Below are positions 3-24,550 of a stretch of 64,000 bases of DNA, piece after piece. A program made the position numbers and the translations under genes. This stretch comes from Volvox africanus (taxonomy: Eukaryota > Chlorophyta > Chlorophyceae > Chlamydomonadales > Volvocaceae). How positions within the stretch are numbered: position 1 is the stretch's first letter; the number at the start of each line of letters is the position of its first letter. The notes under the pieces are model-generated. The model did not search any database and had not been told where the DNA came from. It was given only the letters and a program-made list of their open reading frames with translations. The stretch covers positions 372,001 to 436,000 of the forward strand of contig BSDZ01000037.1 in assembly GCA_030268105.1 (NCBI GenBank), given 5' to 3'.

Positions 3-1310
3 AAGTTGCTTGAAGAAATGAAAATCAGAAATGTTTTAGGGAGAAAATTGGGAAGTGGTTTTTATAGATTAATAAAAAATACTGAGGGGAAAACAGCGAA
101 ACAGGTAATCAATTTTGACAATTTAGATTATGATTCTCTTCCCTCTATCATTGAATATAAGGATATAGAAGAGGTTCTAAACTGCGGTGATAAATACAGT
201 AAATTCATATCTAATATCCTTGCCGATTTCTTTTCATATGTTATTTCTCTTATTCAAGCGGTAACTGACAACAAAACCGATATAGATAAAGCAATGCAGC
301 TAGGATACAGTTTAAAATACGGACCTTTTGAGTTACTAAATAAAATGCCAGATAAAGAAGAGAGGTGGTTGAAATTAAAAGTGCTGAACCAGAAAATTCC
401 TGAAAATGTTACAAATAACTCTCATCACAGGACACAGGCGGGTTCAAAAATAATCTTGAATAATGATTCAGCTCATTTGGAACTTATAGACAGCAATTAT
501 GTTTTTGTTATTAAATCAAAAATGAATTCGTTAGACAGTAAAGTATTTAATTTAATGATAGAGGCCATAGATTACTGTGAAAATAAAAACGAAGCTTTAT
601 ATATATTTCCTTTAGGAGATAATTTTTCTGCTGGGGCTAACTTAAAATCTTTTAAAGAAGCTATAGAAGGTAAAAATTTCAAATTAATAGAAGAAATCCT
701 GGATCTTGGTCAAAAAACAATGCTACGCTTAAAGTATTCCAAGATTCCTGTTATATCTTGCGCTAAGGGATTAGCTTTCGGAGGAGGGTGTGAGACTCTT
801 CTTCATTCAACTTTTGTAGTTGCTCATCAGAATTTAAATAGTGGACTCGTAGAACTTGGTGTGGGTTTAATACCTGGCTGGGGTGGAACTAAAGAAATGT
901 TCCTCCGGAGCAAAGGCAATAAAACTACATTACTTCAGAACTTAAACAATATACTTCTTCAGAATAAATCCAGTTCTGCTGACTATTTTGCTTTGGATTA
1001 TTCAGTTAAAACAGCAATAAACATGAATAAACATTTAATTTTGGAACAGGCTTTTCAGGAGAAGTTTCAAATCTCTTCTTCTAACAACAGCCAAGTTGAT
1101 CTACCTGAAATAAGTTTAATTGACGAAATAGATCACAGTAGTTTCGATAAATTGCAAATTGATGTAATGAATTTATTCCAAAAAATTCTTGATAAGAAAT
1201 CGGTGAGTGAAAGTGAATTATTAGAGTTGGAAAAGCAGAAGTTCTTACAACTAGCATCTCTTCCTCTTAGTCTAGAGCAGATCAGTAAATTTGTGTGTGC
1301 GCCAAGATAA
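3..1310 (+). CDS. 3-hydroxyacyl-CoA dehydrogenase / enoyl-CoA hydratase, FadJ/FadN-like, partial
   Basis: Fatty-acid beta-oxidation enzyme, cytosolic in bacteria. The frame is open to the left edge, so the N-terminal NAD-binding domain lies outside the window; the TTG at 6 is only the first possible start inside it. Residues about 1-130 look like the C-terminal helical part of a 3-hydroxyacyl-CoA dehydrogenase. From about residue 150 comes a crotonase fold with an SAGANL oxyanion-type motif, a GLAFGGGCE segment and LVELGVGLIPGWGG, which carry the two usual glutamates. This order (dehydrogenase first, hydratase after) is that of FadN-type and Rickettsia proteins. The coding part ends near 1296, where a group II intron begins; the last codons and the TAA at 1308-1310 belong to the intron. 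AT-rich codon use is bacterial. The downstream exon is not in the window. Confidence 0.82.
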   Translation, partial: KLLEEMKIRNVLGRKLGSGFYRLIKNTEGKTAKQVINFDNLDYDSLPSIIEYKDIEEVLNCGDKYSKFISNILADFFSYVISLIQAVTDNKTDIDKAMQLGYSLKYGPFELLNKMPDKEERWLKLKVLNQKIPENVTNNSHHRTQAGSKIILNNDSAHLELIDSNYVFVIKSKMNSLDSKVFNLMIEAIDYCENKNEALYIFPLGDNFSAGANLKSFKEAIEGKNFKLIEEILDLGQKTMLRLKYSKIPVISCAKGLAFGGGCETLLHSTFVVAHQNLNSGLVELGVGLIPGWGGTKEMFLRSKGNKTTLLQNLNNILLQNKSSSADYFALDYSVKTAINMNKHLILEQAFQEKFQISSSNNSQVDLPEISLIDEIDHSSFDKLQIDVMNLFQKILDKKSVSESELLELEKQKFLQLASLPLSLEQISKFVCAPR

Positions 1311-2153: not shown

Positions 2154-3361
2154 TGTAGAAGTCAAGATTTGATCTGACATTTGTAAAATAAAATAATTAA
2201 AACAAAGGAGATTAAATCAAATGAATTTACAACAAAAAAAATAAAACGAAAGATAGGATTATTAGAGTTAGCAAAAAGTTTAGGGAATATATCAGCGGCC
2301 TGTAAGACTATGGGTTATAGCAGAGATAGCTACTACAGATTCCAAGAGTTATATGAGACGGGAGGAGAAGAAGCGCTTTTAGATATGACTCGCAAGAAAC
2401 CGATAATAGCTAACAGAGTAGATCCAAAAGTCGAACAAGCAGTGTTAGCTATGGCAATAGAATATCCTGCTTACGGTCAATTAATAGTATCTAATGAACT
2501 TAAGAAAGATGGTGTTATGGTCTCTCCCGGTGGAGTCAGATCGATATGGCTTCGTAATGATCTGAACAATATGAAGAAGCGTTTAAAAGCCCTAGAAGCT
2601 AAGATGGCGCAAGACGGTATTATTCTTACAGAAGCTCAATTACAGGCTTTAGAGAAGCGTAAGAATATGAAAGAGGCTAACGGCGAAATTGATACTCAAC
2701 ATCCAGGTTATTTAGGTTCTCAAGACACGTATTATGTTGGTTATTTTAAAGGCGTCGGAAAAGTGTATGCCCAGGTACTTATGATACTTATGATACTTAT
2801 GATGCTTATGCAAGAGTAGCAGATGCTAAATTGTATGAGGATAAGACGGCTCTAACCGCAGCTGATATGCTTAACGATAGAATATTGCCTTGGTATGAGG
2901 AAGAAGGTATCCCTATTTTGCGTATATTAACCGATAGAGGCACAGAGTATAAGGGCAACATAGAAAATCATGCTTACCAATTGTTTCTTTCTATTGCCGG
3001 CATTGAGCATAGCACTACAAAGGCCTATTCTCCTCAGACTAACGGTATAAGTGAAAGATTTAATAAAACTATGAAACAAGAAATTTTTGATGTAGCAATG
3101 CGTAAGAAGATATATTCTTCACTTGAAGAGCTGCAAAAGGATCTTGATACTTGGCTTGATTATTATAACAATGAGCGGCCGCATTCCGGTAAATTCTGCT
3201 ATGGCAAGACTCCTATGCAGACATTTTAGGATAGCAAAAAACTGGCTCTTGAGAAAAATAATGAAATCTTGTATCTTGAATATAGATCTGGTGGTCGAAA
3301 TTTAACTGACAATCAAATCTAGTTTTTAGACTGTCTGTCAGATCAAATCTTGACTTCTACA
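2154..3361 (+). mobile_element. IS481-family insertion sequence
   Basis: About 1.2 kb bounded by inverted repeats: the left end starts TGTAGAAGTCAAGATTTGAT and the right end is its reverse complement finishing GACTTCTACA at 3361; they match over about 26 bases. One transposase gene fills it. The left neighbour is an IS21 end cut just inside its tip, and the right neighbour (3362-3384) is unrelated, so no target duplication is visible. Confidence 0.8.
2221..3322 (+). pseudogene. IS481-family transposase (frameshifts and nonsense)
   Basis: DDE transposase of the IS481 type. Start ATG at 2221, preceded by AAAGGAG; the frame is broken early in an A-run (CAACAAAAAAAATAA). Residues from 2310 read [20 protein letters not shown] (winged helix-turn-helix), then the linker rich in [12 protein letters not shown]. 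The middle is broken at 2777-2803 where a 9-bp unit ACTTATGAT is repeated three times and the frame shifts. The catalytic core continues as LRILTDRGTEY (second Asp) and ISERFNKTMKQE (catalytic Glu). A further stop (TAG at 3227-3229) replaces the AAG lysine codon seen in the copies at 16284 and 23040. Not functional. Confidence 0.85.
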
Positions 3362-3384
3362 GTCTAATATGCTGTTATTGTCAA
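3362..3384. other. Short unassigned spacer
   Basis: Twenty-three bases between the IS481 right end and the IS21 copy A left end. It contains GTCAA directly before TGTCAA. No homology recognised; perhaps remaining target DNA of either element. Confidence 0.4.
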
Positions 3385-3444
3385 TGTCAACTAAAAAGGG
3401 ACCACATATTTACACCAAAAAGGGACCACTTATCTCAAAAATGT

Positions 3445-3479
3445 TTAGCTCACGGTAACCTCACTTTTTTGATTCTTAG
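3445..3479 (-). pseudogene. istB: istB C-terminal tip, copy A
   Basis: The last codons of istB (…NQKSEVTVS, stop at 3445-3447) stranded to the left of the copia-1 insertion. They align with 16724-16758 in copy B. The final five bases, CTTAG (3475-3479), are the target duplication of copia-1. Confidence 0.75.
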
Positions 3480-3761
3480 TGTTGTGATTATGCGGGATTT
3501 CACGTCATCATAATACCGTCTGGTAACGGTTGTGCAATAGCTCTTACTTAGGTGCGAGTAACCGCGATGTAAGTTAGGTATCGCGACGAGTGCCGTACAG
3601 TTATTATCGCGAGTATATTGTTTGTGCGCACTCTGCGCTAATTAGTCTTGCGCGTTACTAACGTTGATACTATAATTATTTATGCCAATTATACGCGGTT
3701 CTTGCGTCAATACATTGTAATCTATCCATGTTTCGCATCGGTTGCTCCTATTCTCGCAAGA
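3480..3761 (+). repeat. copia-1 5' LTR
   Basis: Starts TGTTGTGATTATGCGGG and ends CTCGCAAGA. Against the 3' LTR the differences are one base each in the runs near 3620 and 3688, and two in the last 35 bases. The start TGTTGTGAT is shared with the copia-2 LTR, so the families are related. Confidence 0.9.
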
Positions 3762-3774
3762 GGTTATGAGCCCC
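3762..3774 (+). promoter_or_regulatory. Primer-binding site 1, complementary to tRNA-Met anticodon region
   Basis: GGTTATGAGCCCC directly after the LTR. Its complement GGGGCTCATAACC has the layout of a Met tRNA anticodon loop (CU-CAU-AA), not of a 3' CCA end. Drosophila copia and yeast Ty5 prime from an internally cleaved initiator tRNA in this way. The same site recurs at 3996 and at 27074 in copia-2. Confidence 0.7.
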
Positions 3775-3905
3775 GGGCGCACGTGCGCGGCTGGCCGAGA
3801 GGTCGCCGATTCGAATCCCACTGGCTGTTGACCAGGGCAGGGAGGCCGGGACGAGGCAGCTATCGGGAGACCGTGAAGCTCGACGGAGTGTCGCTTACGG
3901 GGGGG
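3775..3905 (+). other. Non-coding block with tRNA-like boxes and a G-run
   Basis: About 130 bases between the first primer-binding site and the inner LTR-like block. TGGCCGAGAGG (3792-3802) resembles an RNA polymerase III A box, and GATTCGAATCC (3808-3818) a B box, but they are only five bases apart, so this is at most a collapsed tRNA piece. A run of seven G ends the block at 3899-3905, placed like a polypurine tract before the next TG. Confidence 0.4.
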
Positions 3906-3995
3906 TGTTGAAATGTGAGCAACACTCATATACGAAAGAATGTTAAAGCAAGTAATACGGCCCACGAGGGGCCGGGCGCTTTGCTGACTTCAACA
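3906..3995 (+). repeat. LTR-like block of 90 bp inside copia-1 leader
   Basis: Starts TGTTGAA and ends TTCAACA, a perfect 7-bp inverted repeat, with a G-run just before and a copy of the primer-binding site GGTTATGAGCCCC just after (3996-4008). These are the marks of a very short LTR. It differs from the outer 282-bp LTR. The end TTCAACA resembles the copia-2 LTR end CTCAACA. Confidence 0.5.
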
Positions 3996-4167
3996 GGTTA
4001 TGAGCCCCGGCTCTTCTGAGCCGTAATTATCTCGTCAAGGCATAGGCATCAATCTTTTGGCCAAGCGCTTCCAATTGGTGGTGGCAAATACGGAGCACAG
4101 CGACCGCCGCCTCTGGTCAACAACGACCATAATCGCCTGCCTACATCGGGAACTATAACACGCAGCA
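3996..4167 (+). promoter_or_regulatory. Second primer-binding site and 5' leader of copia-1
   Basis: GGTTATGAGCCCC at 3996-4008, then about 160 bases without a coding frame up to the gag ATG at 4168. The spacing from this site to the ATG is close to that in copia-2 (27074 to 27222), so this is probably the ancestral primer site of the gag-pol module. Confidence 0.55.
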
Positions 4168-7100
4168 ATGGGAAAGGATAGGTTATCAGACCCATTAGGT
4201 CTGAGCAATTATGCTACGTGGTCGTTCAGGTTCCAATCTATGATGCAAGAGAACAACCTGGATAGATGGCTGAGAGACGAACCAATGACCGACGAGGACA
4301 TCGCCGCGTCAAACAAGGTCAGAAACATCCTTGTCAAAAATGTCCAAGATCATCACTTGGCAATTATCAGAGCAGCGCCCAACGCCAAGGGAGCATGGGA
4401 GAGGCTCGCGGCTGTTTTTGCGGCAAGCAGCGACGCAAGAAAATCTCAGCTTGTTGCTGAACTGTCAGCCCTTAAAATGGCACAAAATGAAGCCCTAATC
4501 TTATATCTGGCTCGCGTCCGCAATCTATATACGGACTTGGTGGAAGTGGGGCACCCCGTTACCGAACGGGAAGTTACCTACAATCTACTGGTGGGACTAC
4601 CGAAGAAATTCTCGGTCATTGTTACCACGCTGACAGTCAATGGCCAATACAATTTGGATACCGTGGGCGCTCAACTATTGGCTTTTGAGAAACGAGTCGA
4701 TGCAGAGGGTGATTCCGTTGCTTTCAGTGCAACAAGCCAAAGAGACAATTGGAGCACCGGACAATATCACAGCGAGACTAGCCGCAATCGCAATGATACA
4801 ATTGAACGTGACTATGGAGATAATTCGGTCGCATTTACCGGCACAAGTCGAGGAGGCACATGGAGCGCTGCCAACAACGGCCACGACGGATGGAGCCATC
4901 GCGGCAACACATTTGATCGAGGATACAGGAATATGCCAATCATCAATCAATGCGATGCATGGAGTTATGGAAGAGATGGCCGCAACGGAGTAAGCCAACA
5001 TGAACACAGATCTGGTTATGGCTACGGCGGGACAGTGCAATGCCAACTATGCGGAAATTATGGACATACCGCACGACAATGCCGCACCCCACGCATACCA
5101 CAACCTCCAGGCCAAATAAGACGCGACAGGCAAGATGGCAACTACAACCGCCAGGGCAACAGGAGCCACAACACCGTCGACGCCACAGCGTTATCCAGGC
5201 CAACAAGTCATCAGGAGAGTGGAGGGCGACGATCCAATCAACCAGAGAACTGCGCTTTCGTGGGATCCCAATACGACAAATTACAAGGGTGGTACGTGGA
5301 CTCCGGCGCATCTCACCACATCACGTACGACGAACGGGAGCTAACCAACGTGGTTGGAATAAGCCGACGGGAACGTTTTGACATCATGAGCATGGGTGGG
5401 GAAACCATTCAACCTATCGCAGTAGGCACCCTCATACTGGTGTCCACACTCTACCCCGACACCAAAATCACCATCAACAACGTATACGTGGTGCCACACA
5501 GCTGCGTCAAAATCCTGTCCGTCTCGTCTATCAACGACAAATCCGATGAAGGGGAAATCATGTTCACCAAGCATATGGTCTACGTGAAGCGTTATGGAGA
5601 CATCGTCATTGCAGGCCGACGAGAAGGTAACTTATACAGGTTGGAGTGCGACGTCGATCAACCTAACGACGCACATTTCAGCTTTGCCGGTGCTGCCCAC
5701 GCTAAGCTGTCAAGCCAAAGCGAAGGCCTGTGGCACCGACGCTTTGGGCACATCGGACTCGGAGGTCTGCAGAAGCTAATCAGGCACGGAATGGTGATAG
5801 GCGTCAACGATGTACCACAACAGAAGGTCAACCCCGCCAAGTGCGAGACTTGTGTTTTATCACGGCAAACGCGCGGAACCCACAAATCCACGGGGCACAA
5901 ATCTGATAGACCAATGGAGCTCATTCATGTGGACGTCTGCGGCCCCATGCCGGACAACACCCCAAATGGGTCACGGTACATGACTGTGCTGTTGGATGAC
6001 TGCACAAAATTTTCAGCAGTTGCATTCACCAACACCAAGGAGGCGGTTAAGGACAAGCTGGTAACGATGATAAATCAGCTGGAGAACATGTGTGGACATA
6101 AAACGTGGGAGATGCGATCCGACAGAGGAGGAGAATTCATCAATTCCCAACTACAAACCTTCTTTGCTTCCAGAGGGATCAGGCATGGGCCAACTGTTGG
6201 ATACACCCCTGAACAAAATGGCGCTGCAGAGCGGTTAAACCGGACCCTGCTGGAAAAGATGCGCGCCCTATTGCTTGAATCCAAACTCCCTCAAAAAATG
6301 TGGGCTGAGGCGGCAGCCACAGCCAACTACCTACGCAATATATCCCCAGCAGATGGCATTTCCCGTACCCCGTACGAGCTCTTCACTGGAAAGGTTCCAG
6401 AGGTCGATCACTTGCGCGTTTTTGGCTGCACGGCTTATGTCCATGTGCCCAAGGCCAAGCGCAACAAACTGGATCCCGTGAGTCGATGAGGTATAATGGT
6501 GGGATATGGCGATGGGGGCAGCTACCGGATATTATTCTCGGACGGGTCAGTATCAAGACACAGCGATGTCGTATTCGATGAACAACAGGCCACGCACGAA
6601 CCATACAAACCCTCGGACGACAACCGTGACAATGCTGAAACTGACTCCGATTCCGACATGGATGACCCAGAGCCACGACCAAGAGCTGTCCCTATGCCCA
6701 CCAATGCACACAATGGTCATGGCCACGACCCGAATCTGCCTCAACCACCACCTCCCGTAACACGCACGGCGTCAAGCTATCCAAACACAGAGAGAACAGG
6801 AGCCGTCAACGATGGAGCGGGCCCATCAGGAAGCCAACCAAGGCAAGACCCAATACAAACTGAGGACACCGACGACTCCGACAGTGAAGACATGGCAACA
6901 GAAGAAGACATGGATGTGGACAACACGAGGTTAGCCAACCGCTACCCCATCCGCGTACGAAAGCGCCCATGTGAGTGGTGGCGCACTCAAAGATCGGTGG
7001 CAGCGCGTATCAACATGGCCGCCAGAATACAAGAACCCAAATCTCACCATGATGCGATTAGAGGCCCTCACCGCATCAAGTGGCAACAAGCGATGAACGA

Positions 7101-8574
7101 CGAGATAATTGCCCACATGACCAACGGCACCTGGGAAATTGGCATCCCACCGCCTGGCACAAACGTCCTGCCCTGTTGCTGGGTCTACAAACTCAAGACA
7201 TGCCCTGATGGCTCAATCGACAGATACAAGGCGCGTCTGGTTGCGAAGGGCTTCACACAACGCGAAGGGGTGGATTTTGGAGAACTGTTTGCACCTACAT
7301 CACGAGGCTCATCATTCCGGGCCATCCTAGCCATCGCCGCCGCCAGGGACTTCGACGTACACCAACTAGATGTCTCCACGGCCTTTTTGAACGGCGACCT
7401 CAAAGAGGAAATCTGGATGAAACCACCACCGGGATACGACCTGGCGACCCCAGGAGCTGCCTGCCGGCTACTCAAGTCGATATATGGCCTCCGCCAAGCA
7501 TCCCGCTGCTGGTACGACAAACTATGCACCAAATTCGCTGAAATCGGACTCACCACATCCAAATCTGACCAAGCGATGTTCGTGAGAGCAAGCAACAGCA
7601 AAGGAGACGTGTTCGTGCTGGTCCACGTGGACGACATGTGCATTGCGGCTAAAGACCCCGAGCTGATCCGAAATCTCAAGGCAGAAATCAGCAAACTATT
7701 CAAGGTAAGAGATCTTGGCCGCATTGAGGTATTTCTGGGCATGGAAGTTCGACGGCAACCCAATGGAGAGATCACGTTATCACAATCCAACTATGTGGAA
7801 CGCATCCTACATAAGCATGGCATGAGCGAGGTTAAACCCAGAGCCATCCCCATAGCTGTGGGAGCAAAACTTCACCTGGACAAAGACACCGAGCTGTTGG
7901 AGGATCCGACGCCGTACAGAGCACTCATTGGTGAGCTCAACTACCTGGCAGTCAGCACGCGTCCAGACCTTGGCTTCGCCCTCAGCATGTTGTCACGGTT
8001 CATGGCCAAGCCAACCAAACCCGCAATGGGCATGGCAAAGGGGGTCCTTCGCTACGTGGCGGGCACGCGCAACCTGGGCCTACAGTTCCGGCGGGAGAGC
8101 AAGGAGATCATCGATGGATATTGCGATTCGGACTGGGCAGGAGACACTAACTCAAGGCGATCCACGACTGGGTACGTATTTCGCGTTAATGGTACCGCAA
8201 TCAGCTGGAGCAGTCAGTTGCAGCGCACTGTGGCAGCGTCATCCGTGGAGGCTGAATACCAGGCCCTTTCCAGCGCAGTCAGGGAAGTCCTTTGGCTGAA
8301 TAAGCTATGCGGGGACCTTAATGTGGACTCCGACAGAATCAGAATCAACATAGACTCACAAGGGGCCTTAGACCTAGGCAACAACCGCATTACATCATCA
8401 CGGTCTAAGCATATTGATGTACAGCACCACATGATTCGCGAGAGAGTGATAGAGGGCGACGTGGCACTGGGGCATTGCCGCACGGAGGAGATGGTGGCGG
8501 ACGCATTGACCAAACCACTGCCAGAAGGAAAGTTCGTCTGGTGCCGCCGTGAAATGGGACTAGACGATACCTGA
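4168..8574 (+). pseudogene. copia-1 Gag-Pol polyprotein, one in-frame UGA
   Basis: One frame of 1468 codons plus stop, interrupted only by TGA at 6487-6489, where copia-2 has AAA (Lys). Gag occupies about residues 1-290 with a CCHC zinc knuckle (C292, C295, H300, C305). The aspartic protease has DSGAS at 378-382. The GAG-pre-integrase HHCC region lies near 515-575. Integrase acidic residues are D589, D652 and E688, giving the DD35E spacing. The reverse transcriptase has HVDDMC with D1155/D1156. RNase H holds GYCDSDWAGD near 1310. Related in sequence to copia-2 throughout. A single stop in an otherwise open frame means recent inactivation, a sequencing error or, less likely, readthrough. Confidence 0.92.
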
Positions 8575-8879
8575 CAAAGAAGCCATCGATCTGTTGGTAG
8601 AAACCAGCTCATATAGGCCAATAAGGCGTGAGTCCGGGTGGCTGGCTGTAGTAAAGCTGTTTTTGATAGTGAGGTCATTATTTCTTTTGACAATAACGTT
8701 CATAAGCGAAGGATTACTTATTCTTGTTGTGGCATCTAACAGCACCAGTCCAGCATCGTCTCAATTGCCTTATCGTAGAGGTTTATTTCAGTGATACTTA
8801 GTAACTTGACGCTACTATCTTTGAGGGGGTGTGATATTGGAGTGCCCTATTCGACCATGACGTGCATCCCGAGGGGGTG
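8575..8879 (+). other. copia-1 3' untranslated region with two polypurine tracts
   Basis: No coding frame. GAGGGGGTG occurs twice, at 8823-8831 (followed by TGATATTGG) and at 8871-8879 (followed by the 3' LTR). The second is the functional-looking polypurine tract. The first is followed by 39 bases that look like the start of another, lost LTR, paralleling the doubled signals at the 5' end. Confidence 0.6.
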
Positions 8880-9161
8880 TGTTGTGATTATGCGGGATTT
8901 CACGTCATCATAATACCGTCTGGTAACGGTTGTGCAATAGCTCTTACTTAGGTGCGAGTAACCGCGATGTAAGTTAGGTATCGCGACGAGTGCCGTACAG
9001 TTATTATCGCGAGTATATTTTTTGTGCGCACTCTGCGCTAATTAGTCTTGCGCGTTACTAACGTTGATACTATAATTATTTATGCCAAATATACGCGGTT
9101 CTTGCGTCAATACATTGTAATCTATCCACGTTTCGCATCGGTTGCTCCTATCCTCGCAAGA
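8880..9161 (+). repeat. copia-1 3' LTR
   Basis: Same length as the 5' LTR and 278 of 282 bases identical. Followed directly by CTTAG (9162-9166), the second copy of the target duplication, and then the rest of istB. Confidence 0.92.
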
Positions 9162-9875
9162 CTTAGTTCTATAACTTGGTCCAGTAATTTTAATTACTTT
9201 TCCATGATGTCTTAACCTATCCGTAATAGCTTTAGTTAATTCTTCATCTTCAAGAATATGATTCCAATTCTCATAGTCCTTATTAGTAGTAATAATTATT
9301 GAGTTATTCTCATATCTTTTAGATACAACATTAAAAAAATCATCTACTGAATATTTTGGTAAGGTTTTAAAACCCAGTTCATCTAATATTAATAAATCAT
9401 AACTAACAAGCTGTTGTAATTTTTTATGGTAGGAATTATGAGCTCTTGCTATATGTAAATTATATAGCATGTCAGATACCGTGGTAAAAAATACTTTATA
9501 TTCCTTACTTAATGCCTTTAATGCTATACCAATTGATAAGTGGGTTTTGCTGGTACCAGAATCTCCAATTAAAATTAGATTATGTTTGTCCCTGATAAAC
9601 TGACAGCTAGCTGCATCATTAATTTCTCTCTCATCAATGCTCTTCTGAAAGCTAAAATTAAAATCTTCCAGCTTCTTGTTCGCCGGTAATTTTGCTGCAC
9701 TATAACGCCTCTAATAGTTATTATCACGTCTGTTATCCAGTTCATCCTCGCATAACAGTTCCAAAAATTCTTCATATGGTAATTTTTTACTTCTAGCATA
9801 TGATAAACGGTCTTCCAATGTTAATGCCATGCCGGAAAGTTTGAAGTCCCTGAGCCTTTTATATAATTCCTGCAT
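9162..9875 (-). pseudogene. istB: IS21 helper ATPase IstB, copy A (main part)
   Basis: AAA+ ATPase that helps IstA choose targets. Start ATG at 9873-9875 behind GGAGGTGAAG. N-terminal helical part MQELYKRLRDFKLSGMALTL, then a stop (TAG instead of AAG, near 9715) not present in copies B and C. The Walker A loop is GDSGTSKTHL, complete here but shortened in B and C; Walker B reads LLILDELGF; sensor region SIIITTNKDYENW. The C-terminus is cut off by copia-1. Its start overlaps the end of istA, as usual in IS21. Confidence 0.85.
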
Positions 9876-10039
9876 CTTCACCTCCAAACAAAGGTAAAGG
9901 TAAATCATAACAATTATTTTTTATGATCTCTTTTATTTTACTATAATTCCCAATTCCATAGTGCAAAGCTCTCATACAAGCTTTATTTACTATTTCATTA
10001 CCGTATAGCTTTTTCAGATGTAATATTCCTTTGACGGTC
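9876..10039 (-). pseudogene. istA: istA C-terminal tail, copy A
   Basis: The last ~55 codons of istA (…LHLKKLYGNEIVNKACMRAL and onward), separated from the rest by the 0.8-kb insert at 10040-10853. Aligns with 17433-17612 of copy B. Confidence 0.7.
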
Positions 10040-10853
10040 CATCTCCCTGAACGTTATCGGTAGATCACCTTCAATAGCATTATGTTCCATTTGTTATTGG
10101 GTCCGACTGGCTCGTCCCTTTCCCCCTGGTGGGGGGAGGGCTCGCCGTCATGTCTTGTGGTGTTTGGGGAGTGGTGAAAGTCTTGGTGCAAGGCCCGTGC
10201 CTCAGAGATGTCCGTCGATGTTATTCACGGTGTAAGGCACTAAAGGTGGGTTCGGGTGCTCATATTATCCTATTTTTGAACATGCCACGTACCTTGCCTG
10301 TTTTGCCCCGCAATGAACAATTGACATGAGGTTCAGAAAGGAAGCACTTAATGGGCGTGAAGCCGCATTATCATATCATACTGAAAAACGTTACGGAATA
10401 TTGCAGCTGCCTTCACTTTTGTCGCACATTGGTCTGGGTACGCAATCCCCAACTGCCTCAATCAATCTCCAACACATCCGGCCACCCACCCCGGAAGGTG
10501 TGTTCATCCCAAACGCCGCTACCCACTAACTGTTCTCCTAAACCACCTACTTTATGGCATGCATATGCAAGACGATGACCTCCTGTCTTGCGTTTTTCCG
10601 ATTCAAGTCCAAGAAACATACAGCCGGGGGGAGCATGGCCCAGCGCAAACCGGTTGTGCACGGGGGCTCCTTCTGGACGTCTTCGAGTGTGTCCTCAGAT
10701 GAAAGCAAATTTTTCGTTACAAAATTAATAGTTACAGCCAATCCAACAATTTTGATGCTCATTCGTTGTTCCTGGCTCATCGTCTAGTCGCCACGTACGC
10801 ACAAGGAGCAGCACATCTCAATGCCCAGATTCCAACCAATCAGATCAGTGGAC
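10040..10853. mobile_element. Unidentified 0.8-kb insertion inside istA, copy A
   Basis: Copy B and copy C run straight from GACGGTCC into TTGGCCAATC, while copy A has about 814 extra bases between GACGGTCC and CTTGCCAATC. The insert is richer in G and C than the IS around it and resembles nuclear DNA. It carries no convincing coding frame (short open stretches only), no LTR and no tRNA. The two junctions read GGTCCA and TGGACC, a 6-bp inverted pair; no clear direct target duplication is seen. Probably a nuclear mobile element or filler DNA added after transfer. Confidence 0.6.
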
Positions 10854-12093
10854 CTTGCCAATCTTTACTTTTTCCTCGATCCCGGATGAATGATAACATT
10901 TTATCCCCATATTCCCCTATTTCTTGCATCTCTATAACACATTTATTTTGGTATTCTGGAGATTCAGGGTAATATAATTTGTACTCAGGCCAGTGCGATC
11001 TGTTAGTTGTAAATGATCCTTTCCCATTCAATCTATTATGCATGGCAACCATTTGGCCCTGAGCATAAATTCTGACTATTTCACTTCCCAAGGACACTCC
11101 TACTTCTGTGCCGGCATATTTTGATGGTACAGAATAATAATTTCTATCTAAGCTTATATGACAGTCTTTAGCTACTTTCCTTTTGTGCCATGATGATAAA
11201 TCAAAACCGACTTCAGGTAATTTTGTTAAAGCTGCAATTTCCTCGTTGCTAAAAAGCTCTTCAGGTTTTTTCTTAGAAGTACCATGAATACGTTTATTAC
11301 TCTTTCTATTCCAGGTTCCCAAGGCTTCAACCATTTCCTTATTATTGCTAAATTTTCTACCAGCAAAGAAGTTATTGGTTATATACTTTATGCCATTCTC
11401 TACCTTACCTTTCTCCTGCGGTTTACGAACTCTACAGGGAGCCGGTAAAAAATTATAATGATCTGCAAATCTTTTGTATTGTTCCTGATATATTGGTTCA
11501 TAAAAATTAGCAATAGTTATCGCTGACTTTAAACTATCCAGCTTTATTACTTTTGGTACTCCCTGAAAATAATTAAAAGCATTAATATGACACTGAATCC
11601 ACGTATTAACCTTTTGATCAAACACAATTTCATAATAATCCTTACGACTATAGCTAAGACGCATGTTAAATATATATGCTTTTCTTAATTTCCCTTCAGA
11701 ATCATACCTTCTACCAATATCGCCGAAGTCTACTTGAGCTTCTTCACCGGGTAGAGTATTAAATCTGATACATATTGAATTGTATAGTTTTATCTTTCTA
11801 AGGTATCTGGTAAGACTGGAATAGCTTCCAAAAAAACCTAAGCCTTGAAGTTCTTCATGGATCCTGACAAAACTCAGGTCTTTTTTCAACAGCTTTATAG
11901 CGTCTTCATGCCATTTAAAGACTTGTGATTCCTTTTGCTTTTGTGTTGGGGATTCTATCCCTGCAGAATTATATTTATATACAATTCTTCTTATTGTTTT
12001 GCGGTCTCGCCCAATTAATTTTGCTATTTCCCTCTGGCTCTTACCTTGCTTATATAATGTTAATATAGTTGTATACATAGGAACTCCTATCAT
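10854..12093 (-). pseudogene. istA: IS21 transposase IstA, copy A (C-terminus displaced)
   Basis: Start ATG at 12091-12093 with GAGGG upstream. N-terminal helix-turn-helix (KSQREIAKLIGRDRKTIRRI), then the RNase H-like core: first Asp in AQVDFGDI, second Asp in IKLDSLKSA, Glu in KGKVENGIKYI, then a C-terminal beta domain (KDCHISLDRNYYSVP). The frame is intact from the start but runs into the 0.8-kb insert at 10853. Copy A keeps five bases (AATTC) in the N-terminal part that copy B has lost. Confidence 0.88.
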
Positions 12094-12213
12094 TTTTTAG
12101 CCCTCATTAAAAAATAAAGGCTAGTTTGCACTAAATTTGAACTGTTAAGTTCACCTTTTTACCCGGTCCCTTTGTAGTGCAATTTTCTGGTCCCTTTTAT
12201 CTTAGCACTGACA

Positions 12214-12802
12214 TTAATTCTGATTCTGTAAAAATAATAACGGTACCATCAATATTAAGTGTAATATCGGGTAAATATTTTGCATTCATGTTTTTTCTAA
12301 ACCATGCCAGATCATGAGTATCTAATAGCTGTTGCGGATTTAAAATATTTGGTACGGTGAATTGAATGTTTAAACTTTCTATTTCATCTACTATTTTTTC
12401 AAAAGTACTTATCTTGTTAACAAGCAATTGCGCAGCATTAGGAAAAAACGGAGGAACATTAAAAAAATAAGCGTTAATGGATTTAGGAGTTTTTCTATAT
12501 ATATCAATGCTATTACCCATCCCCACTTCTGATAGTTTTTTCAAAAAAGCTGTATTTGCCGAAGAATCTGTTTTTAAAAAATATTTAAAATTGTCATTTA
12601 TGACCAATTCCAGCTCTTTTTTATAATGTAATTTTATTTCTTCATAAAGCATGTTGTATTCTACCAACTTATTCCATTGATCGTTGGTAGTCAATCCAAC
12701 TGAAGTACCATCGTCAAAAAACCTTCTTACTCCGAAATGAATTCAAAACTCCAGCCCTGACTGTTTTGATTTTGTTTTTAAAAACTCTAAGCTGGTCTTC
12801 AT
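12214..12802 (-). pseudogene. LuxR-like regulator, N-terminal half (unit 1)
   Basis: From ATG at 12800-12802 the frame reads MKTSLEFLKTKSKQSGLEF, then a TGA (12743-12745), then IHFGVRRFFDDGTSVGL and about 165 further residues. The pattern RRFFDDG…L.TN..W resembles the ligand-type N-terminal domain of LuxR-family proteins found in Rickettsiales. The IS21 right end (12213) interrupts it at …FTESEL. A matching DNA-binding half (LuxR helix-turn-helix) lies beyond IS21 copy B at 16484, which supports one gene split by IS21. The family call for this half alone is moderate. IS701-type sequence starts at 12818, so its promoter is gone. Confidence 0.5.
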
Positions 12803-12817
12803 ATTTTTAAATATTAA

Positions 12818-13910
12818 CAGGACTTACGCAAAAGGCAAATTAGGGCTCCTCAATTCCCGTATCAAATAATTTCGCAATAACCCGCTTTTCACTTGATAAA
12901 CACTAGTAGAAGCAGCATTTGCAACTTTTTTTAGACAATTCCAGACCATGATAGCGCAGGCTATATGATTTCTCTGTATCCTTCCTATTCTACATTGGCA
13001 TTTTTCGATACCCGTAACTTGTTTGACTTCACGATGAAATTCCTCAATTTTCCACCTGAACCCATACTCTTCTTGTACAGCTTCAAGCGAATCTTGATCC
13101 ATGTCATTTGTTATGACATAGTCAGTTCTGTTAGTAGAAACAGTTACCCTGAATAATTTCACTTTATGATCCTTAGGAAATTTATGAATCTTTATAACCT
13201 TCCCATTGCTAATATCATCAGTACTCCAATCTAAAGAATCAACTCTACAGTAGTTCCTAACTCCCTTACTATCATCTACTAATCGATTGCTCTTTATGGG
13301 ACAATAATAGTATTTACAGATAGATTCTATTTGAAGTAGAATTGAGATCGTTGCGTACCAACTGTCCATAAGTACTGTGCTAAATGCAACCTTTTTACTG
13401 TGATAAGCATTACGCAGCATTTCTTTAACATGCTCGATTTTAGTTAAACCATCTTTATCGGGGTTGAATATTCTATAATCTACTACCCAGAACTTATTCT
13501 CTTCAGGATTAACATAAACACAACTTACAACTCCTATACCTTTTATGACTCCCTTGGCATTACCACTGTATTGATACCTTACTTCCTCAATATTATTTGA
13601 ATAGCTTTTATCCAATACACTATCGTCAAATAGCAGTTTACCGTTAGGACTAAAGATAATCTCACCTTTACCATGCTCCCATATCAACCTTGGTGATAAT
13701 TTAGCATTTACTAGATATCTTCTTACCTTATCATCGCTTAAACCTTCTACATGATCGGCAAAATTGTAATCGTGTAATTTGTCTGGCTTGATAATAAGTA
13801 CTGACAGTATTCTATTCTTGTAATCATTTCATTTTATAACTAATTTTCTTAAACTACTAACTAAATTAACATTTACATACTCTATTTTCATCTCTTTTGC
13901 GGAAGTCCTG
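12818..13910 (-). mobile_element. IS701/IS4-type insertion sequence 1 (unit 1)
   Basis: About 1.09 kb bounded by inverted repeats CAGGACTTACGCAAAAG (12818-12834) and, reversed, CAGGACTTCCGCAAAAG (13894-13910), one mismatch in 17. It carries one DDE transposase on the minus strand. A clear target duplication is not visible. Confidence 0.7.
12824..13827 (-). pseudogene. DDE transposase (IS701/IS4-like) 1, unit 1, N-terminal frameshift
   Basis: Catalytic part reads LLFDDSVLDKSYSNNIE (first Asp), then VLMDSWYAT (second Asp), then FRWKIEEFHREVKQVTG (Glu of the Y/F-2-R-3-E-6-K type signature). The N-terminal ~45 codons (…YLLSSQTNYTIT then ADHVEGLSDDKVRRYL) are in a second frame because one A is missing near 13771. 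Typical proteins of this group are 320-340 residues, close to the joined length here. The same break is present in unit 2 (20527), so it predates the duplication. Confidence 0.8.
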
Positions 13911-14003
13911 ATAATATTAGCTAATAAGGGATTTTTCTTTTTATAGATTTCGTAAATAATATTGTTAACGCTGCTGATTATCGGGTGCATACTTTACCAT
14001 ATA
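13911..14003. other. AT-rich spacer
   Basis: No frame, repeat or RNA recognised. It joins the IS701-type element to the small ORF at 14004. Confidence 0.4.
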
Positions 14004-14207
14004 TTACTCAGTAAAAGTTTTATCATTATCAAAAATCTCGATCTCATATTTACAGGAGCTATTATCTAATTCCGATTTCAGATTTTTAAGGTTGGTAACC
14101 ATCCCGCACCATTCACTGCGGAATCTATGAAAACGTAGACCGCATGAGCGTATAAAGTCCCTAATATCGCTACTTGGTTCAGTTGCAAGTTTTAGAATCA
14201 CAGGCAC
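14004..14207 (-). CDS. Small hypothetical protein (unit 1)
   Basis: ATG to TAA, 67 residues, beginning MPVILKLATEPSSDIRDFIR, with a basic/aromatic centre (GLRFHRFRSEWCG) and an acidic end. Not recognised. Bacterial codon use, and identical in unit 2. It starts two bases from an IS481 end (14209), so it may be the tail or a decapitated piece of a longer gene. Confidence 0.45.
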   Translation of the reverse strand: MPVILKLATEPSSDIRDFIRSCGLRFHRFRSEWCGMVTNLKNLKSELDNSSCKYEIEIFDNDKTFTE

Positions 14208-14247
14208 TTGTAGAAGTCAAGATTTGATCTGACAGACAGTCTAAAAA

Positions 14248-14757
14248 CTAGATTTGATTGTCAGTTAAATTTTGACTTCTACAATCAATTTCGCCGTTAG
14301 CCTCTTTCATATTCTTATGCTTCTCTAAAGCCTGTAATTGAGCTTCTGTAAGAATAATACCGTCTTGCGCCATCTTAGCTTCTAGGGCTTTTAAACGCTT
14401 CTTCATATTGTTCAGATCATTACGAAGCCATATCGATCTGACTCCACCGGGAGAGACCATAACACCATCTTTCTTTAGTTCATTAGATACTCTTAATTGA
14501 CCGTAAGCAGGATATTCTATTGCCATAGCTAACACTGCTTGTTCGACTTTTGGATCTACTCTGTTAGCTATTATCGGTTTCTTGCGAGTCATATCTAAAA
14601 GCGCTTCTTCTCCTCCCGTCTCATATAACTCTTGGAATCTGTAGTAGCTATCTCTGCTATAACCCATAGTCTTACAGGCCGCTGATATATTCCCTAAACT
14701 TTTTGCTTACTCTAATAATCCTATCTTTGGTTTTATTATTTTTTGTTGTAAATTCAT
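14248..14757 (-). pseudogene. IS481 transposase, N-terminal half with internal deletion (unit 1)
   Basis: Start ATG at 14755-14757 (MNLQQKIIKPKIGLLE), then TAA where the copy at 2221 has TTA; the frame reopens and reads [20 protein letters not shown] up to KEANGEID. After that the whole catalytic core is missing and the frame jumps to the C-terminal tail (NLTDNQI). The deletion junction carries TGTAGAAGTC, the tip of the element's own terminal repeat. Not functional. Confidence 0.8.
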
Positions 14758-14817
14758 TTGATTTAATCTCCTTTGTTTTAATTAGTTTTATTATACAAAT
14801 GTCAGATTAAATCTCAA

Positions 14818-15792
14818 CTACTTCATGTTAGCCAATAGCCATCTGATATTGTTCTGGATTGCTGTTTTTATAACTTCCCAAGTTAGTTGATATAAAGTAA
14901 TTTTTTCATTTATCCTCCTTTTGTTTATCTCAAGCCAAGCAGATACGGCAAGGTAAATATGATTTCTTTGAGCTCGACCCGTGCGTGCCTGACAGCGTCC
15001 AATACTACAAGTTTGCTTTAATTCTCGATGATAAACCTCTATAGACCAACGTGCTTCGGCAATTTTATCTACTTGCTCACGTGTTGGATTTTCCATGTTA
15101 GTTGTTATGTAATCAATGCGACCGTTTTTTGCCACAAACTTGAATACCGTAACCCAACCGTATCCACGTAGGTGAATCTTTAGCCCCTCATCGGGAATCT
15201 CCAAACTTTCCAAGCTAACATTACGATTAACTTTCCTATTCTTCCTTAAGTTGGTAACCCATATCCAACCTAAATCACGTATTTGTTTCAAGTTCTCTAA
15301 GCTGCTATGCCAAGCATCCATTACTACAGCCTCAGGATTGATACCTCTTTCCTTGGCTAAACTAAGCATATCACAAAAATGATCATTCTTCGTTTTTCCG
15401 TCGGTTTCTTTATCATAAACCCTATAATCTACAGGGATAGACTGTTCTTTCTTCGTATCATAATGCAGTAGGTTTACCATTCCTATACCAGGGATAACAT
15501 CATGTACGGCACCAGAATATTGATAATGCACAAGTTCGATCTTTTTGCTATATTGCTTTGATATCAAAGTATCATCGCCTACTAATAGGCAAGGAGAATC
15601 CTTATCAATATATTGCGATACCTCTTTATAAATCTCACTAGGGCGGAAATTCTGGCTATTTAGCCACCGACTTGCGCTATCATGAGACAGAGCGACGGGA
15701 CTTACTTCCGATAGCGCTTTGCCAGTATATCTCACGCTACTTGCTTGCAAAAATGATTTGTATAAATCCTTACTACACTTTGATCTTGACAT
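14818..15792 (-). CDS. DDE transposase (IS701/IS4-like) 2, unit 1
   Basis: Intact 324-residue frame from ATG at 15790-15792. First Asp in LLVGDDTLISKQYSKKIE, second in AVVMDAWHSS, Glu in ARWSIEVYHRELKQTC; the HDSASRWL segment near residue 40 is the usual N-terminal motif. Distant from transposase 1 but of the same general type. Element ends could not be set: the stop codon lies against a diverged IS481 terminal repeat (about 14821) and the upstream side reaches IS481 sequence at about 15855. One of the few unbroken bacterial frames here. Confidence 0.85.
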   Translation of the reverse strand: MSRSKCSKDLYKSFLQASSVRYTGKALSEVSPVALSHDSASRWLNSQNFRPSEIYKEVSQYIDKDSPCLLVGDDTLISKQYSKKIELVHYQYSGAVHDVIPGIGMVNLLHYDTKKEQSIPVDYRVYDKETDGKTKNDHFCDMLSLAKERGINPEAVVMDAWHSSLENLKQIRDLGWIWVTNLRKNRKVNRNVSLESLEIPDEGLKIHLRGYGWVTVFKFVAKNGRIDYITTNMENPTREQVDKIAEARWSIEVYHRELKQTCSIGRCQARTGRAQRNHIYLAVSAWLEINKRRINEKITLYQLTWEVIKTAIQNNIRWLLANMK

Positions 15793-15854
15793 TCTTTACT
15801 AAAAATATTTTTTTCTAATTTAACATATTTTCTTCCAAGTGCGAAACTCCTGTA

Positions 15855-16378
15855 TTGACACTTATGCAAGAGTAGCAGATGCTAAATTGTATGAGGATAA
15901 GACGGCTCTGACCGCAGCTGATATGCTTAACGATAGAATATTGCCTTGGTATGAGGAAGAAGGTATCCCTATTTTGCGTATATTAACCGATAGAGGCACA
16001 GAGTATAAGGGCAACATAGAAAATCATGCTTACCAATTGTTTCTTTCTATTGCCGGCATTGAGCATAGCACTACAAAGGCCTATTCTCCTCAGACTAACT
16101 GTATATGTGAAAGATTTAATAAAACTATGAAACAAGAGTTTTTTGAAGTAGCAATGCGTAAGAAGATATATTCTTCACTTGAAGAGCTGCACAAGGATCT
16201 TGATACTTGGCTTGATTATTATAACAATGAGCGGCCGCATTCCGGTAAATTCTGCTATGGCAAGACTCCTATGCAGACATTTAAGGATAGCAAAAAACTG
16301 GCTCTTGAGAAAAATAATGAAATCTTGTATCTTAAATATAGATCTGGTGGTCAAAATTTAACTGACAATCAAATCTAG
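15855..16378 (+). pseudogene. IS481 transposase, C-terminal half (unit 1)
   Basis: Reads DTYARVADAKLYEDKTALTA, then LRILTDRGTEYKGN (Asp), CERFNKTMKQEFFEV (Glu) and the C-terminal tail NLTDNQI with stop at 16376-16378. The frame is open but lacks the DNA-binding half and first catalytic Asp. Followed by the IS481 right terminal repeat ending at 16417. Confidence 0.82.
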
Positions 16379-16483
16379 TTCTTAGACTGTCTGTCAGATC
16401 AAATCTTGACTTCTACAAAACTAAAACTTTCTTATTAATCTTAACGCCTTTTTTTTCTGAAAATATACTGAAAATATGAATTA

Positions 16484-16663
16484 TTAAACCGTATAAAATA
16501 TCTGTCGAGCCATGGCGGATAAAGCGCTTCTGCTATGCTTTCCTGTTTTTTTTCTAATATTGTTGATACGCCATTCTACAGTTTTTGGAGAAATGTTAAG
16601 TCTATTCGACATTTCTTTAGTAATCGTAGTGTAGGTTAATAGTTTAAGTAATTTTATTGTGTT
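16484..16663 (-). pseudogene. LuxR-type helix-turn-helix domain, C-terminal half (unit 1)
   Basis: Sixty residues: LTYTTITKEMSNRLNISPKT then VEWRINNIRKKTGKHSRSAL. This is the LuxR/GerE DNA-binding domain (LT..E.A..L.IS..TV…NI..K.G..SR). It begins where IS21 copy B starts (16664) and so has lost its own start. The N-terminal half lies on the far side of IS21 copy B at 18970-19558. IS21 therefore split one regulator gene. Confidence 0.75.
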
Positions 16664-16723
16664 TGTCAACTAAAAAGGGACCACTTATTTGCACCAAAAA
16701 GGGACCACTTATCTCAAAAATGT

Positions 16724-17449
16724 TTAGCTCACGGTAACCTCACTTTTTTGATTCTTAGTTCTATAACTTGGTCCAGTAATTTTAATTACTTTTCCATGAT
16801 GTCTTAACCTATCCGTAATAGCTTTAGTTAATTCTTCATCTTCAAAAATATGATTCCAATTCTCATAGTCCTATTAGTAGTAATAATTATTGAGTTATTC
16901 TCATATCTTTTAGATACAACATTAAAAAAATCATCTACTGAATATTTTGGTAAGGTTTTAAAACCCAGTTCATCTTATATTAATAAATCATAACTAACAA
17001 GCTGTTGTAATTTTTTATGGTAGGAATTATCAGCTCTTGCTATATGTAAATTATATAGCATGTCAGATACCGTGGTAAAAAATACTTTATATTCCTTACT
17101 TAATGCCTTTAATGCCTTTTTGCCTGCACCAGAATCTCCAATTAAAATTAGATTATGTTTGTCCCTGATAAACGGACAGCTAGCTGCATCATTAATTTCT
17201 CTCTCATCAATGCTCTTCTGAAAGCTAAAATTAAAATCTTCCAGCTTCTTGTTCGCCGGGTAATTTTGCTGCACTATAACGCCTCTTATAGTTATTATCA
17301 CGTCTGTTATCCAGTTCATCCTCGCATAACAGTTCCAAAAATTCTTCATATGGTAATTTTTTACTTCTAGCATATGATAAACGGTCTTCCAATGTTAATG
17401 CCATGCCGGAAAGTTTGAATTCCATGAGCCTTTTATATAATTCCTGCAT
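16724..17449 (-). pseudogene. istB: IstB ATPase, copy B
   Basis: Start ATG at 17447-17449 behind GGAGGTGAAG. Compared with copy A: an extra G near 17260 shifts the frame; a missing T near 16872 shifts it again; the codon near 16977 reads TAA; and 18 bases are lost at the Walker A motif, so GDSGTSKTHLSIGI becomes GDSGAGKK in phase. Copy C shares the 18-base loss and the extra G. Several breaks, so not functional. Confidence 0.85.
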
Positions 17450-18849
17450 CTTCACCTCCAAACAAAGGTAAAGGTAAATCATAACAATTATTTTTTATGA
17501 TCTCTTTTATTTTACTATAATTCCCAATTCCATAGTGCAAAGCTCTCATACAAGCTTTATTTACTATTTCATTACCGTATAGCTTTTTCAGATGTAATAT
17601 TCCTTTGACGGTCCTTGGCCAATCTTTACTTTTTCCTCGATCCCGGATGAATGATAACATTTTATCCCCATATTCCCCTATTTCTTGCATCTCTATAACA
17701 CATTTATTTTGGTATTCTGGTGATTCAGGGTAATATAATTTGTACTCAGGCCAGTGCGATCTGTTAGTTATAAATGATCCTTTCCCATTCAATCTATTAT
17801 GCATGGCAACCATTTGGCCCTGAGCATAAATTCTGACTATTTCACTTCCCAAGGACACTCCTACTTCTGTGCCGGCATATTTTGATGGTACAGAATAATA
17901 ATTTCTATCTAAGCTTATATGACAGTCTTTAGCTACTTTCCTTTTGTGCCATGATGATAAATCAAAACCGACTTCAGGTAATTTTGTTAAAGCTGCAATT
18001 TCCTCGTTGCTAAAAAGCTCTTCAGGTTTTTTCTTAGAAGTACCATGAATACGTTTATTACTCTTTCTATTCCAGGTTCCCAAGGCTTCAACCATTTCCT
18101 TATTATTGCTAAATTTTCTACCAGCAAAGAAGTTATTGGTTATATACTTTATGCCATTCTCTACCTTACCTTTCTCCTGCGGTTTACGAACTCTACAGGG
18201 AGCCGGTAAAAAATTATAATGATCTGCAAATCTTTTGTATTGTTCCTGATATATTGGTTCATAAAAATTAGCAATAGTTATCGCTGACTTTAAACTATCC
18301 AGCTTTATTACTTTTGGTACTCCCTGAAAATAATTAAAAGCATTAATATGACACTGAATCCACGTATTAACCTTTTGATCAAACACAATTTCATAATAAT
18401 CCTTACGACTATAGCTAAGACGCATGTTAAATATATATGCTTTTCTTAATTTCCCTTCAGAATCATACCTTCTACCAATATCGCCGAAGTCTACTTGAGC
18501 TTCTTCACCGGGTAGAGTATTAAATCTGATACATATTGAATTGTATAGTTTTATCTTTCTAAGGTATCTGGTAAGACTGGAATAGCTTCCAAAAAAACCT
18601 AAGCCTTGAAGTTCTTCATGGATCCTGACAAAACTCAGGTCTTTTTTCAACAGCTTTATAGCGTCTTCATGCCATTTAAAGACTTGTGATTCCTTTTGCT
18701 TTTGTGTTGGGGATTCTATCCCTGCAGAATTATATTTATATACTTCTTATTGTTTTGCGGTCTCGCCCAATTAATTTTGCTATTTCCCTCTGGCTCTTAC
18801 CTTGCTTATATAATGTTAATATAGTTGTATACATAGGAACTCCTATCAT
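17433..18849 (-). pseudogene. istA: IstA transposase, copy B
   Basis: Same protein as copy A with an intact C-terminus (…LPLPLFGGEDAGII, stop at 17433). Start ATG at 18847-18849. Five bases are missing near 18742 (TATATACTTCTT against TATATACAATTCTTCTT in copy A), which breaks the helix-turn-helix region; the frame from 18650 downward is open through the DDE core. The end overlaps the istB start. Confidence 0.87.
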
Positions 18850-18969
18850 TTTTTAGCCCTCATTAAAAAATAAAGGCTAGTTTGCACTAAATTTGAACTG
18901 TTAAGTTCACCTTTTTACCCGGTCCCTTTGTAGTGCAATTTTCTGGTCCCTTTTATCTTAGCACTGACA

Positions 18970-19558
18970 TTAATTCTGATTCTGTAAAAATAATAACGGT
19001 ACCATCAATATTAAGTGTAATATCGGGTAAATATTTTGCATTCATGTTTTTTCTAAACCATGCCAGATCATGAGTATCTAATAGCTGTTGCGGATTTAAA
19101 ATATTTGGTACGGTGAATTGAATGTTTAAACTTTCTATTTCATCTACTATTTTTTCAAAAGTACTTATCTTGTTAACAAGCAATTGCGCAGCATTAGGAA
19201 AAAACGGAGGAACATTAAAAAAATAAGCGTTAATGGATTTAGGAGTTTTTCTATATATATCAATGCTATTACCCATCCCCACTTCTGATAGTTTTTTCAA
19301 AAAAGCTGTATTTGCCGAAGAATCTGTTTTTAAAAAATATTTAAAATTGTCATTTATGACCAATTCCAGCTCTTTTTTATAATGTAATTTTATTTCTTCA
19401 TAAAGCATGTTGTATTCTACCAACTTATTCCATTGATCGTTGGTAGTCAATCCAACTGAAGTACCATCGTCAAAAAACCTTCTTACTCCGAAATGAATTC
19501 AAAACTCCAGCCCTGACTGTTTTGATTTTGTTTTTAAAAACTCTAAGCTGGTCTTCAT
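18970..19558 (-). pseudogene. LuxR-like regulator, N-terminal half (unit 2)
   Basis: Same sequence as 12214-12802, including the in-frame TGA (19499-19501). This copy is the true partner of the helix-turn-helix half at 16484-16663: the two flank IS21 copy B. Family assignment depends mainly on that partner. Confidence 0.5.
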
Positions 19559-19573
19559 ATTTTTAAATATTAA

Positions 19574-20666: not shown

Positions 20667-20759
20667 ATAATATTAGCTAATAAGGGATTTTTCTTTTTAT
20701 AGATTTCGTAAATAATATTGTTAACGCTGCTGATTATCGGGTGCATACTTTACCATATA

Positions 20760-20963
20760 TTACTCAGTAAAAGTTTTATCATTATCAAAAATCTCGATCT
20801 CATATTTACAGGAGCTATTATCTAATTCCGATTTCAGATTTTTAAGGTTGGTAACCATCCCGCACCATTCACTGCGGAATCTATGAAAACGTAGACCGCA
20901 TGAGCGTATAAAGTCCCTAATATCGCTACTTGGTTCAGTTGCAAGTTTTAGAATCACAGGCAC
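20760..20963 (-). CDS. Small hypothetical protein (unit 2)
   Basis: Identical 67-residue frame to 14004-14207. Unrecognised. Confidence 0.42.
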   Translation of the reverse strand: MPVILKLATEPSSDIRDFIRSCGLRFHRFRSEWCGMVTNLKNLKSELDNSSCKYEIEIFDNDKTFTE

Positions 20964-21003
20964 TTGTAGAAGTCAAGATTTGATCTGACAGACAGTCTAA
21001 AAA

Positions 21004-24549: not shown

Positions 24550-24550
24550 T

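Follow-up and report, generated by a model that had tools for sequence, protein, structure and literature searches.

A Ty1/copia element inserted with target-site duplication in tandemly amplified 'Candidatus Megaira'-type DNA of the Volvox africanus genome assembly

The window analysed here is a stretch of 64,000 nucleotides from Volvox africanus (assembly GCA_030268105.1), bases 372001-436000 of the 694,844-bp contig BSDZ01000037.1, referred to below as C36. Near its start the window holds a copy of a bacterial insertion sequence (IS) of the IS21 family, whose istB gene is interrupted by a Ty1/copia retrotransposon; a second insertion, a multi-copy algal repeat, lies in the same copy, and two sibling copies without either insertion lie in the neighbouring tandem duplication (Table 1). 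Coordinates are those of the window unless a contig is named. The assembly searched comprised 141 Mb in 126 contigs, and copy numbers in it are lower bounds, with the part of the candidates that was scored given for each. C36 was seen as sampled stretches up to 546 kb.

The copia element (3480-9161) carries long terminal repeats (LTRs) that differ at 4 of 282 bp (positions 3620, 3689, 3729 and 3752), and it is precisely flanked by CTTAG on both sides. The four LTR differences and the flanking CTTAG are as claimed in a preliminary description made from the sequence of the window. The probability of a chance match between the 5-bp flanks is about 0.0016, assuming 34% GC (guanine plus cytosine). 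As in the Ty1/copia group, there is a gag region, and the integrase (rve, open frame 1) lies upstream of an RVT_2-type reverse transcriptase (open frame 2), all between LTRs with a 5-bp duplication. Unlike in that group, in which LTRs usually end in CA, the LTRs end in GA or TA in the copies seen, and the gag-pol frame is interrupted between open frames 1 and 2. The putative primer-binding site is presumably complementary to the anticodon region of the initiator tRNA-Met. Since the LTR family is multi-copy in the algal assembly (at least 41 matches, 40 of 143 candidates scored), the element belongs to that assembly. A second full-length copy lies at C26:1687332-1692782 with its own 5-bp duplication, CCAAG.

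When the element is removed and its flanks are joined with a single CTTAG, the product matches the window at 16654-17340 and 23410-24097 with 95% identity, so that the istB sequence is restored as had been proposed. In the multiple alignment the site is uninterrupted in 5 of 5 relatives: the window copies at 16.65 and 23.41 kb, the C36 copies at 350.6-350.9 kb and about 50.6 kb, and a Megaira copy (L109). According to the match listing, the C36 copies at 336040-338175 and 338913-340477 also match continuously across this point. The preliminary description had asked for the empty site to be sought in the endosymbiont genome; this was done in one relative's genome, that of Megaira MegNEIS296, a symbiont of Mesostigma viride, and there IS21 is continuous over 2.05 kb with 96% identity. 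The statement that istB is uninterrupted at 16755 and 23511 needs qualification, as both copies are intact at the copia site and broken elsewhere, the longest frame being 132 amino acids (aa). On C36 the copies at about 350 kb and about 50 kb have full-length istB frames (258 aa), as does Megaira (256 aa).

The insertion costs IstB its last nine residues, and the Pfam IstB match still extends to profile position 234 of 238. Intact copies end in SYRTKNQKSEVTVS, or SEVAVS in Megaira, and the interrupted copy runs into the LTR after SYRTK. IstB_IS21, HTH_23 and Mu-transpos_C_2 score over their cut-offs, and rve reaches 29.9-30.2 bits, under the cut-off of 32.6. With istA and istB the copy resembles other members of the IS21 family, from which it differs in being interrupted by eukaryotic elements and in no longer residing in a bacterium; a repeated end motif is seen in the alignment.

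Table 1. Features of the analysed window, with the basis of each assignment
Positions	Strand	Feature	Basis
6..1310	+	part of Megaira-type enoyl-CoA hydratase / 3-hydroxyacyl-CoA dehydrogenase gene	sequence match
2234..3361	+	bacterial IS transposase remnants, HTH and rve_3 domains	Pfam
3375..3479		outer end of interrupted IS21 copy, repeated AAAAAGGGACCA end motifs	alignment
3475..3479		left target-site duplication CTTAG	flank comparison, multiple alignment
3480..3761	+	5' LTR of copia element, 282 bp, TGTTGTG...CGCAAGA	LTR comparison
3762..3773	+	putative primer-binding site GGTTATGAGCCC, abuts 5' LTR	position
4168..6489	+	open frame 1: gag, gag-pre-integrase, beta-barrel, integrase core, start of SH3-like domain	Pfam
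6496..8574	+	open frame 2: reverse transcriptase (RVT_2)	Pfam
8880..9161	+	3' LTR, 4 mismatches to 5' LTR	LTR comparison
9162..9166		right target-site duplication CTTAG	flank comparison, multiple alignment
9162..10040	-	istB and junction to istA of interrupted IS21 copy	alignment, Pfam
10041..10849		second insertion, ~800-bp multi-copy algal repeat, two parts inverted against paired genomic copies listed; flanks GGTCC / GGACC (imperfect)	alignment
10840..12093	-	istA (IS21 transposase), remainder past second insertion	frame, Pfam
10850..24551		tandem duplication of Megaira-type DNA, period ~6,756 bp, copies 99.8% identical	self-comparison
12824..13687	-	bacterial DDE (DDE_Tnp_1) transposase frame; repeated at 19580-20443	Pfam
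14818..15792	-	second bacterial DDE transposase frame; repeated at 21574-22548	Pfam
16654..17614	-	IS21 copy B, empty site for copia (16754-16758) and for second insertion	alignment
23410..24371	-	IS21 copy C, empty site for copia (23510-23514) and for second insertion	alignment
25185..26309	-	TolB frame, 374 aa	Pfam

The origin of the bacterial DNA was assessed by comparison with sequenced relatives. PepA, encoded at C36:362-372 kb, is 96% identical (aa) to its counterparts in MegNEIS296 and in one uncultured Rickettsiales metagenome-assembled genome (MAG), 88% to that in a MAG labelled Rickettsia sp. bin_208, and at most 69% to those at the other 77 of the 80 loci listed. C36 is collinear with MegNEIS296 over 8.8 kb, in blocks of 2.6 and 6.2 kb with 88-89% DNA identity, and its IS21 copies are 95-97% identical to that of MegNEIS296. 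By identity, with no tree behind it, the closest relatives are thus Megaira for PepA, the collinear blocks and IS21, and going by these matches the bacterial DNA is of the 'Candidatus Megaira' type (Rickettsiaceae). None of the 9 scored matches to DnaA in the assembly exceeded the cut-off, which only shows that there is no whole bacterial chromosome in the assembly. For a bacterial 16S model 5 of 3,058 candidates were scored and at least 6 matches obtained, all partial, a result that is not usable.

Three further insertions are found in the tract. At C36:356070-362511 a gypsy element has LTRs of 354 bp with 5 mismatches and is flanked by CCAAT on both sides. RVT_1, RNase H, H2C2 and Chromo are over their Pfam cut-offs, with rve at 29.8 bits against a cut-off of 32.6, and the reverse transcriptase precedes the integrase, as is found in chromodomain gypsy elements. 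The joined flanks give an open transposase frame across the insertion site, which from its motif pattern we take to be IS630-like; this target gene had one match, of 145 bp and 71%, to a Rickettsia locus. The next insert, of 241 bp (C36:99579-99819), has CGAAC on both sides and lies inside a Megaira-type tandem unit, with sibling units that are empty at this site. Together with CTTAG and CCAAT this makes three exact 5-bp duplications on C36. On C26, about 1.1 kb downstream from a copia LTR, there is a 95% match to the 241-bp insert that does not extend into its flanks (300 bp compared on each side); the insert may be a solo LTR or belong to another class.

The remaining insertion, at 10041-10849 of the window, has at least 64 matches in the assembly (40 of 45 candidates scored). 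Compared with the paired genomic copies listed, its first ~296 bases are in the reverse orientation. Of the matches listed, the nearest (99-100%) are at C36:437279-438074, some 55 kb from the insertion. Frames of 141 and 145 aa were found near two genomic copies. The insertion looks like a rearranged repeat.

Bacterial-type DNA was found in samples between 42 and 398 kb of the 695-kb contig. In the C36 stretches examined and window positions 1-26,500 taken together, 91.5 of 106.5 kb fell in 500-bp bins below 42% GC; in six other C36 stretches this held for 6 of 120 bins, three of them in a stretch with a simple repeat (L013) and three in another (L022). GC content alone is no proof of bacterial origin. 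The bacterial blocks are flanked by stretches of algal sequence. On one side, at C36:312-322 kb, lies a frame of a long interspersed nuclear element (LINE) with 99% identity over 96% of its length to VaNZ11_015193 of V. africanus. On the other side the TolB frame is the last bacterial gene seen before an algal copia frame at 27222, and algal retroelements continue through 27-64 kb of the window in the Pfam scan. The bacterial tract, the V. africanus LINE, the algal retroelements and the contrasting GC samples thus occur on the same contig, as is looked for in nuclear-integrated bacterial DNA, and both host mobile-element insertions and decay mark the tract as processed in the manner of host DNA.

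Two other repeats were seen on the contig. C36 begins (1-10000) with a ~299-bp satellite whose copies are ~97% identical, with GC 0.53; it is possible that this is centromeric or subtelomeric DNA on the tract-bearing contig. The simple repeat mentioned above occupies 1.4 kb (C36:286140-287531), and its translation reads MYVC/THIY.

Parts of the tract are amplified. A 7,583-bp unit taken from C36:192260 has at least 38 matches (17 of 102 candidates scored), of which 36 lie on C36 at 67-332 kb and the other 2 on C69. Between 81 and 138 kb on C36 the starts are spaced about 11 kb apart; the array units on this contig measure ~4.4, ~7.6 and ~11 kb. The 7.6-kb unit is not collinear in MegNEIS296, where it corresponds to 11 scattered pieces (40 of 63 candidates scored), and this mosaic may have formed either in the donor or once in the nucleus. 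Among the matches listed to the 7,583-bp unit, the 241-bp insert splits four units, two of them read (L016, L017) and two placed by the same gap, and it is absent from four others as well as from both units of a further stretch (L015). The array therefore grew after the insert had entered, that is, in the nucleus. On C47 a monomer of 2,425 bp (two units read) joins ~350-510 bp of Megaira-type DNA to an algal repeat of 835 bp; there are 27 copies of the Megaira-type piece within 63 kb (C47:96078-159508), with a period of ~2,425 bp. The same piece also occurs at two places on C114 and at one on C22. In the window, the istB part at 9162-10040 differs by 3-4% from copies B and C (16754-17614) and the next stretch is 99.8% alike, so that the tandem duplication appears as if formed by recombination between IS21 copies.

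A 4.9-kb block around PepA is single-copy in the assembly and lies on C36 (10 of 10 candidates scored). Nine shards of it, 41-181 bp long and 76-100% identical, lie on nine other contigs and suggest that transfers took place at several times. TolB-like pieces of 44-46 residues with 64-67% identity were seen in GC-poor dips at C11:737199 and C91:1417698, and are possibly older rickettsial shards.

Decay was measured against two Megaira loci. Frame-shifting indels private to C36 occur in 4 of 8 genes compared. Inside genes lie 4 of the 9 private indels of C36, as against 0 of 3 in Megaira L026 and 1 of 8, at an alignment edge, in Megaira L028; the compared genes are open frames of L026, a choice that disfavours finding indels in L026. 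Pooled over the copia and gypsy elements, LTR divergence is 0.71% per lineage (0.32-1.34%). Neutral change since transfer, estimated in eight genes from the excess of change at the first and second codon positions, is 0.52% (bootstrap -0.6 to 1.65%) and falls to 0.12% when the largest gene is omitted. Codon-position dating was dropped, being too imprecise to part the transfer from the jumps.

The best overall explanation, which we hold with near certainty, is that a Megaira tract came to lie in the V. africanus nucleus and was afterwards subject to algal element insertions and amplification. A genome tract of a 'Candidatus Megaira' endosymbiont would have entered a nuclear chromosome, most likely by end joining. 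A Ty1/copia element would then have integrated at CTTAG near the end of istB, a staggered cut leading to the 5-bp duplication; the chromodomain gypsy element, the 241-bp insert and the ~800-bp algal repeat would also have entered, and parts of the tract would have been amplified to tandem arrays, most likely by recombination. Copia integrase needs host nuclear DNA. A nuclear location would accordingly have been required for integration, and a live symbiont would not. The preliminary description had argued for nuclear transfer rather than contamination or a bad join, and this is supported: both flanks are bacterial, the duplication is exact, the site is empty in the siblings and in Megaira, and three further algal insertions agree, two of them with exact 5-bp duplications. 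That the transfer preceded the copia jump, as was also claimed, follows from the insertion itself and not from divergence estimates.

Other explanations have some points in their favour. According to the available part of PMC10291315, the assembly was built with Canu from PacBio Sequel reads (listed as DRA015422). Repeats are abundant and bacterial arrays are hard to assemble, so that contigs of a co-cultured symbiont might have been joined by the assembler to algal repeats, and the exact length of the C36 bacterial array is possibly wrong. However, a misjoin does not make an exact 5-bp duplication round a full element that, once removed, leaves the bacterial sequence restored, in three cases on one contig, and the C47 units read hold Megaira-type and algal sequence in one monomer, with the Megaira-type piece repeated along the array; misassembly was rejected and we consider it very improbable. 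Megaira lives within algal cells and the tract still consists largely of open frames, as would be expected if the copia element had jumped into a living Megaira chromosome inside the alga and the contig were symbiont DNA. This is the least credible of the alternatives and was likewise rejected, as the C36 bacterial blocks lie between the LINE and the algal retroelements, the C47 monomers mix both DNAs, and we know of no way in which a eukaryotic pre-integration complex could enter a bacterium. The unit at C36:192260, which is pieced together from scattered parts of the Megaira chromosome, could speak for arrival in the nucleus by some other route, for example a giant virus or free DNA, instead of from a resident endosymbiont. 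We think this highly unlikely, considering that the tract has collinear Megaira gene blocks and that rickettsial endosymbionts are on record in V. carteri, Pleodorina japonica and Carteria cerasiformis (available part of PMC4324946).

Several observations weigh against nuclear transfer followed by insertion and amplification, or limit it. The evidence consists of assembled contigs. Bacterial contigs were filtered out of the published assembly (PMC10291315, available part), so that the strain may have a live symbiont, and for this reason the missing DnaA does not mean that it is without one. A search of one Megaira genome for the empty gypsy site came out negative (67% over 183 bp), and the case for that site therefore rests on the continuity of the frame. 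The flank duplication of the second insertion in the window is imperfect. Most tract genes are still largely open, and by codon position they change for the most part as genes under selection do, which makes the transfer a young one; the neutral change of 0.52% is indistinguishable both from zero and from the LTR age of 0.71%.

Comparable cases were sought in the literature. In the V. carteri nucleus a ~9-kb rickettsial tract was described by Kawafune et al. 2015 (PMC4324946), with multicopy A within ddlB and a Jordan-like transposon nearby. In both cases a Volvox nucleus holds DNA from a rickettsial symbiont of algae, in part truncated and bearing inserted host repeats, and the V. africanus tract differs in being much larger (samples from 42 to 398 kb) and tandemly amplified. 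No match to murB, a part of the V. carteri tract, was found in the V. africanus assembly, which argues against identity with that locus and for a different transfer or a different part. The terms 'Target site' and 'retrotranspos' occur 0 times in PMC4324946. Chromosome four of Drosophila ananassae carries Wolbachia DNA with whole-genome copies, estimated at ~5 Mbp (Klasson et al. 2014, PMC4299567). That endosymbiont tract is likewise large and duplicated, there thought to be tandemly arrayed, with many host retroelement integrations; the host there is an insect, in contrast to an alga with Megaira here, where the array units are ~4.4, 7.6 and 11 kb. No Megaira insert in V. africanus is named in the titles and abstract openings covered, subscription papers being mostly outside this scope. 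In the available parts, 'rickettsia', 'megaira', 'endosymbiont' and 'horizontal' occur 0 times in PMC10291315, and 'nuclear' 0 times in PMC10132079. The kind of event is thus already known from V. carteri and D. ananassae; its scale, the amplification and the occurrence in a second Volvox species were not found reported within this scope.

It seems to us rather unlikely that the Megaira DNA has become a nuclear satellite of V. africanus (~197 kb of units on C36, the units on C69 and the 63-kb array on C47), with arrays that have grown between waves of algal insertion and that may serve as heterochromatin or as a centromere-like domain. Filtering contigs by their bacterial matches can overlook genuine nuclear inserts, and might also remove them. 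Here symbiont-to-nucleus transfer in an alga is demonstrated by proof internal to the sequence and independent of coverage arguments, and the events can be ordered as transfer, then mobile-element insertions, then more tandem amplification. As volvocalean hosts are non-phagotrophic (PMC4324946, available part), large Megaira transfers bear on how symbiont DNA reaches the nucleus without engulfment.

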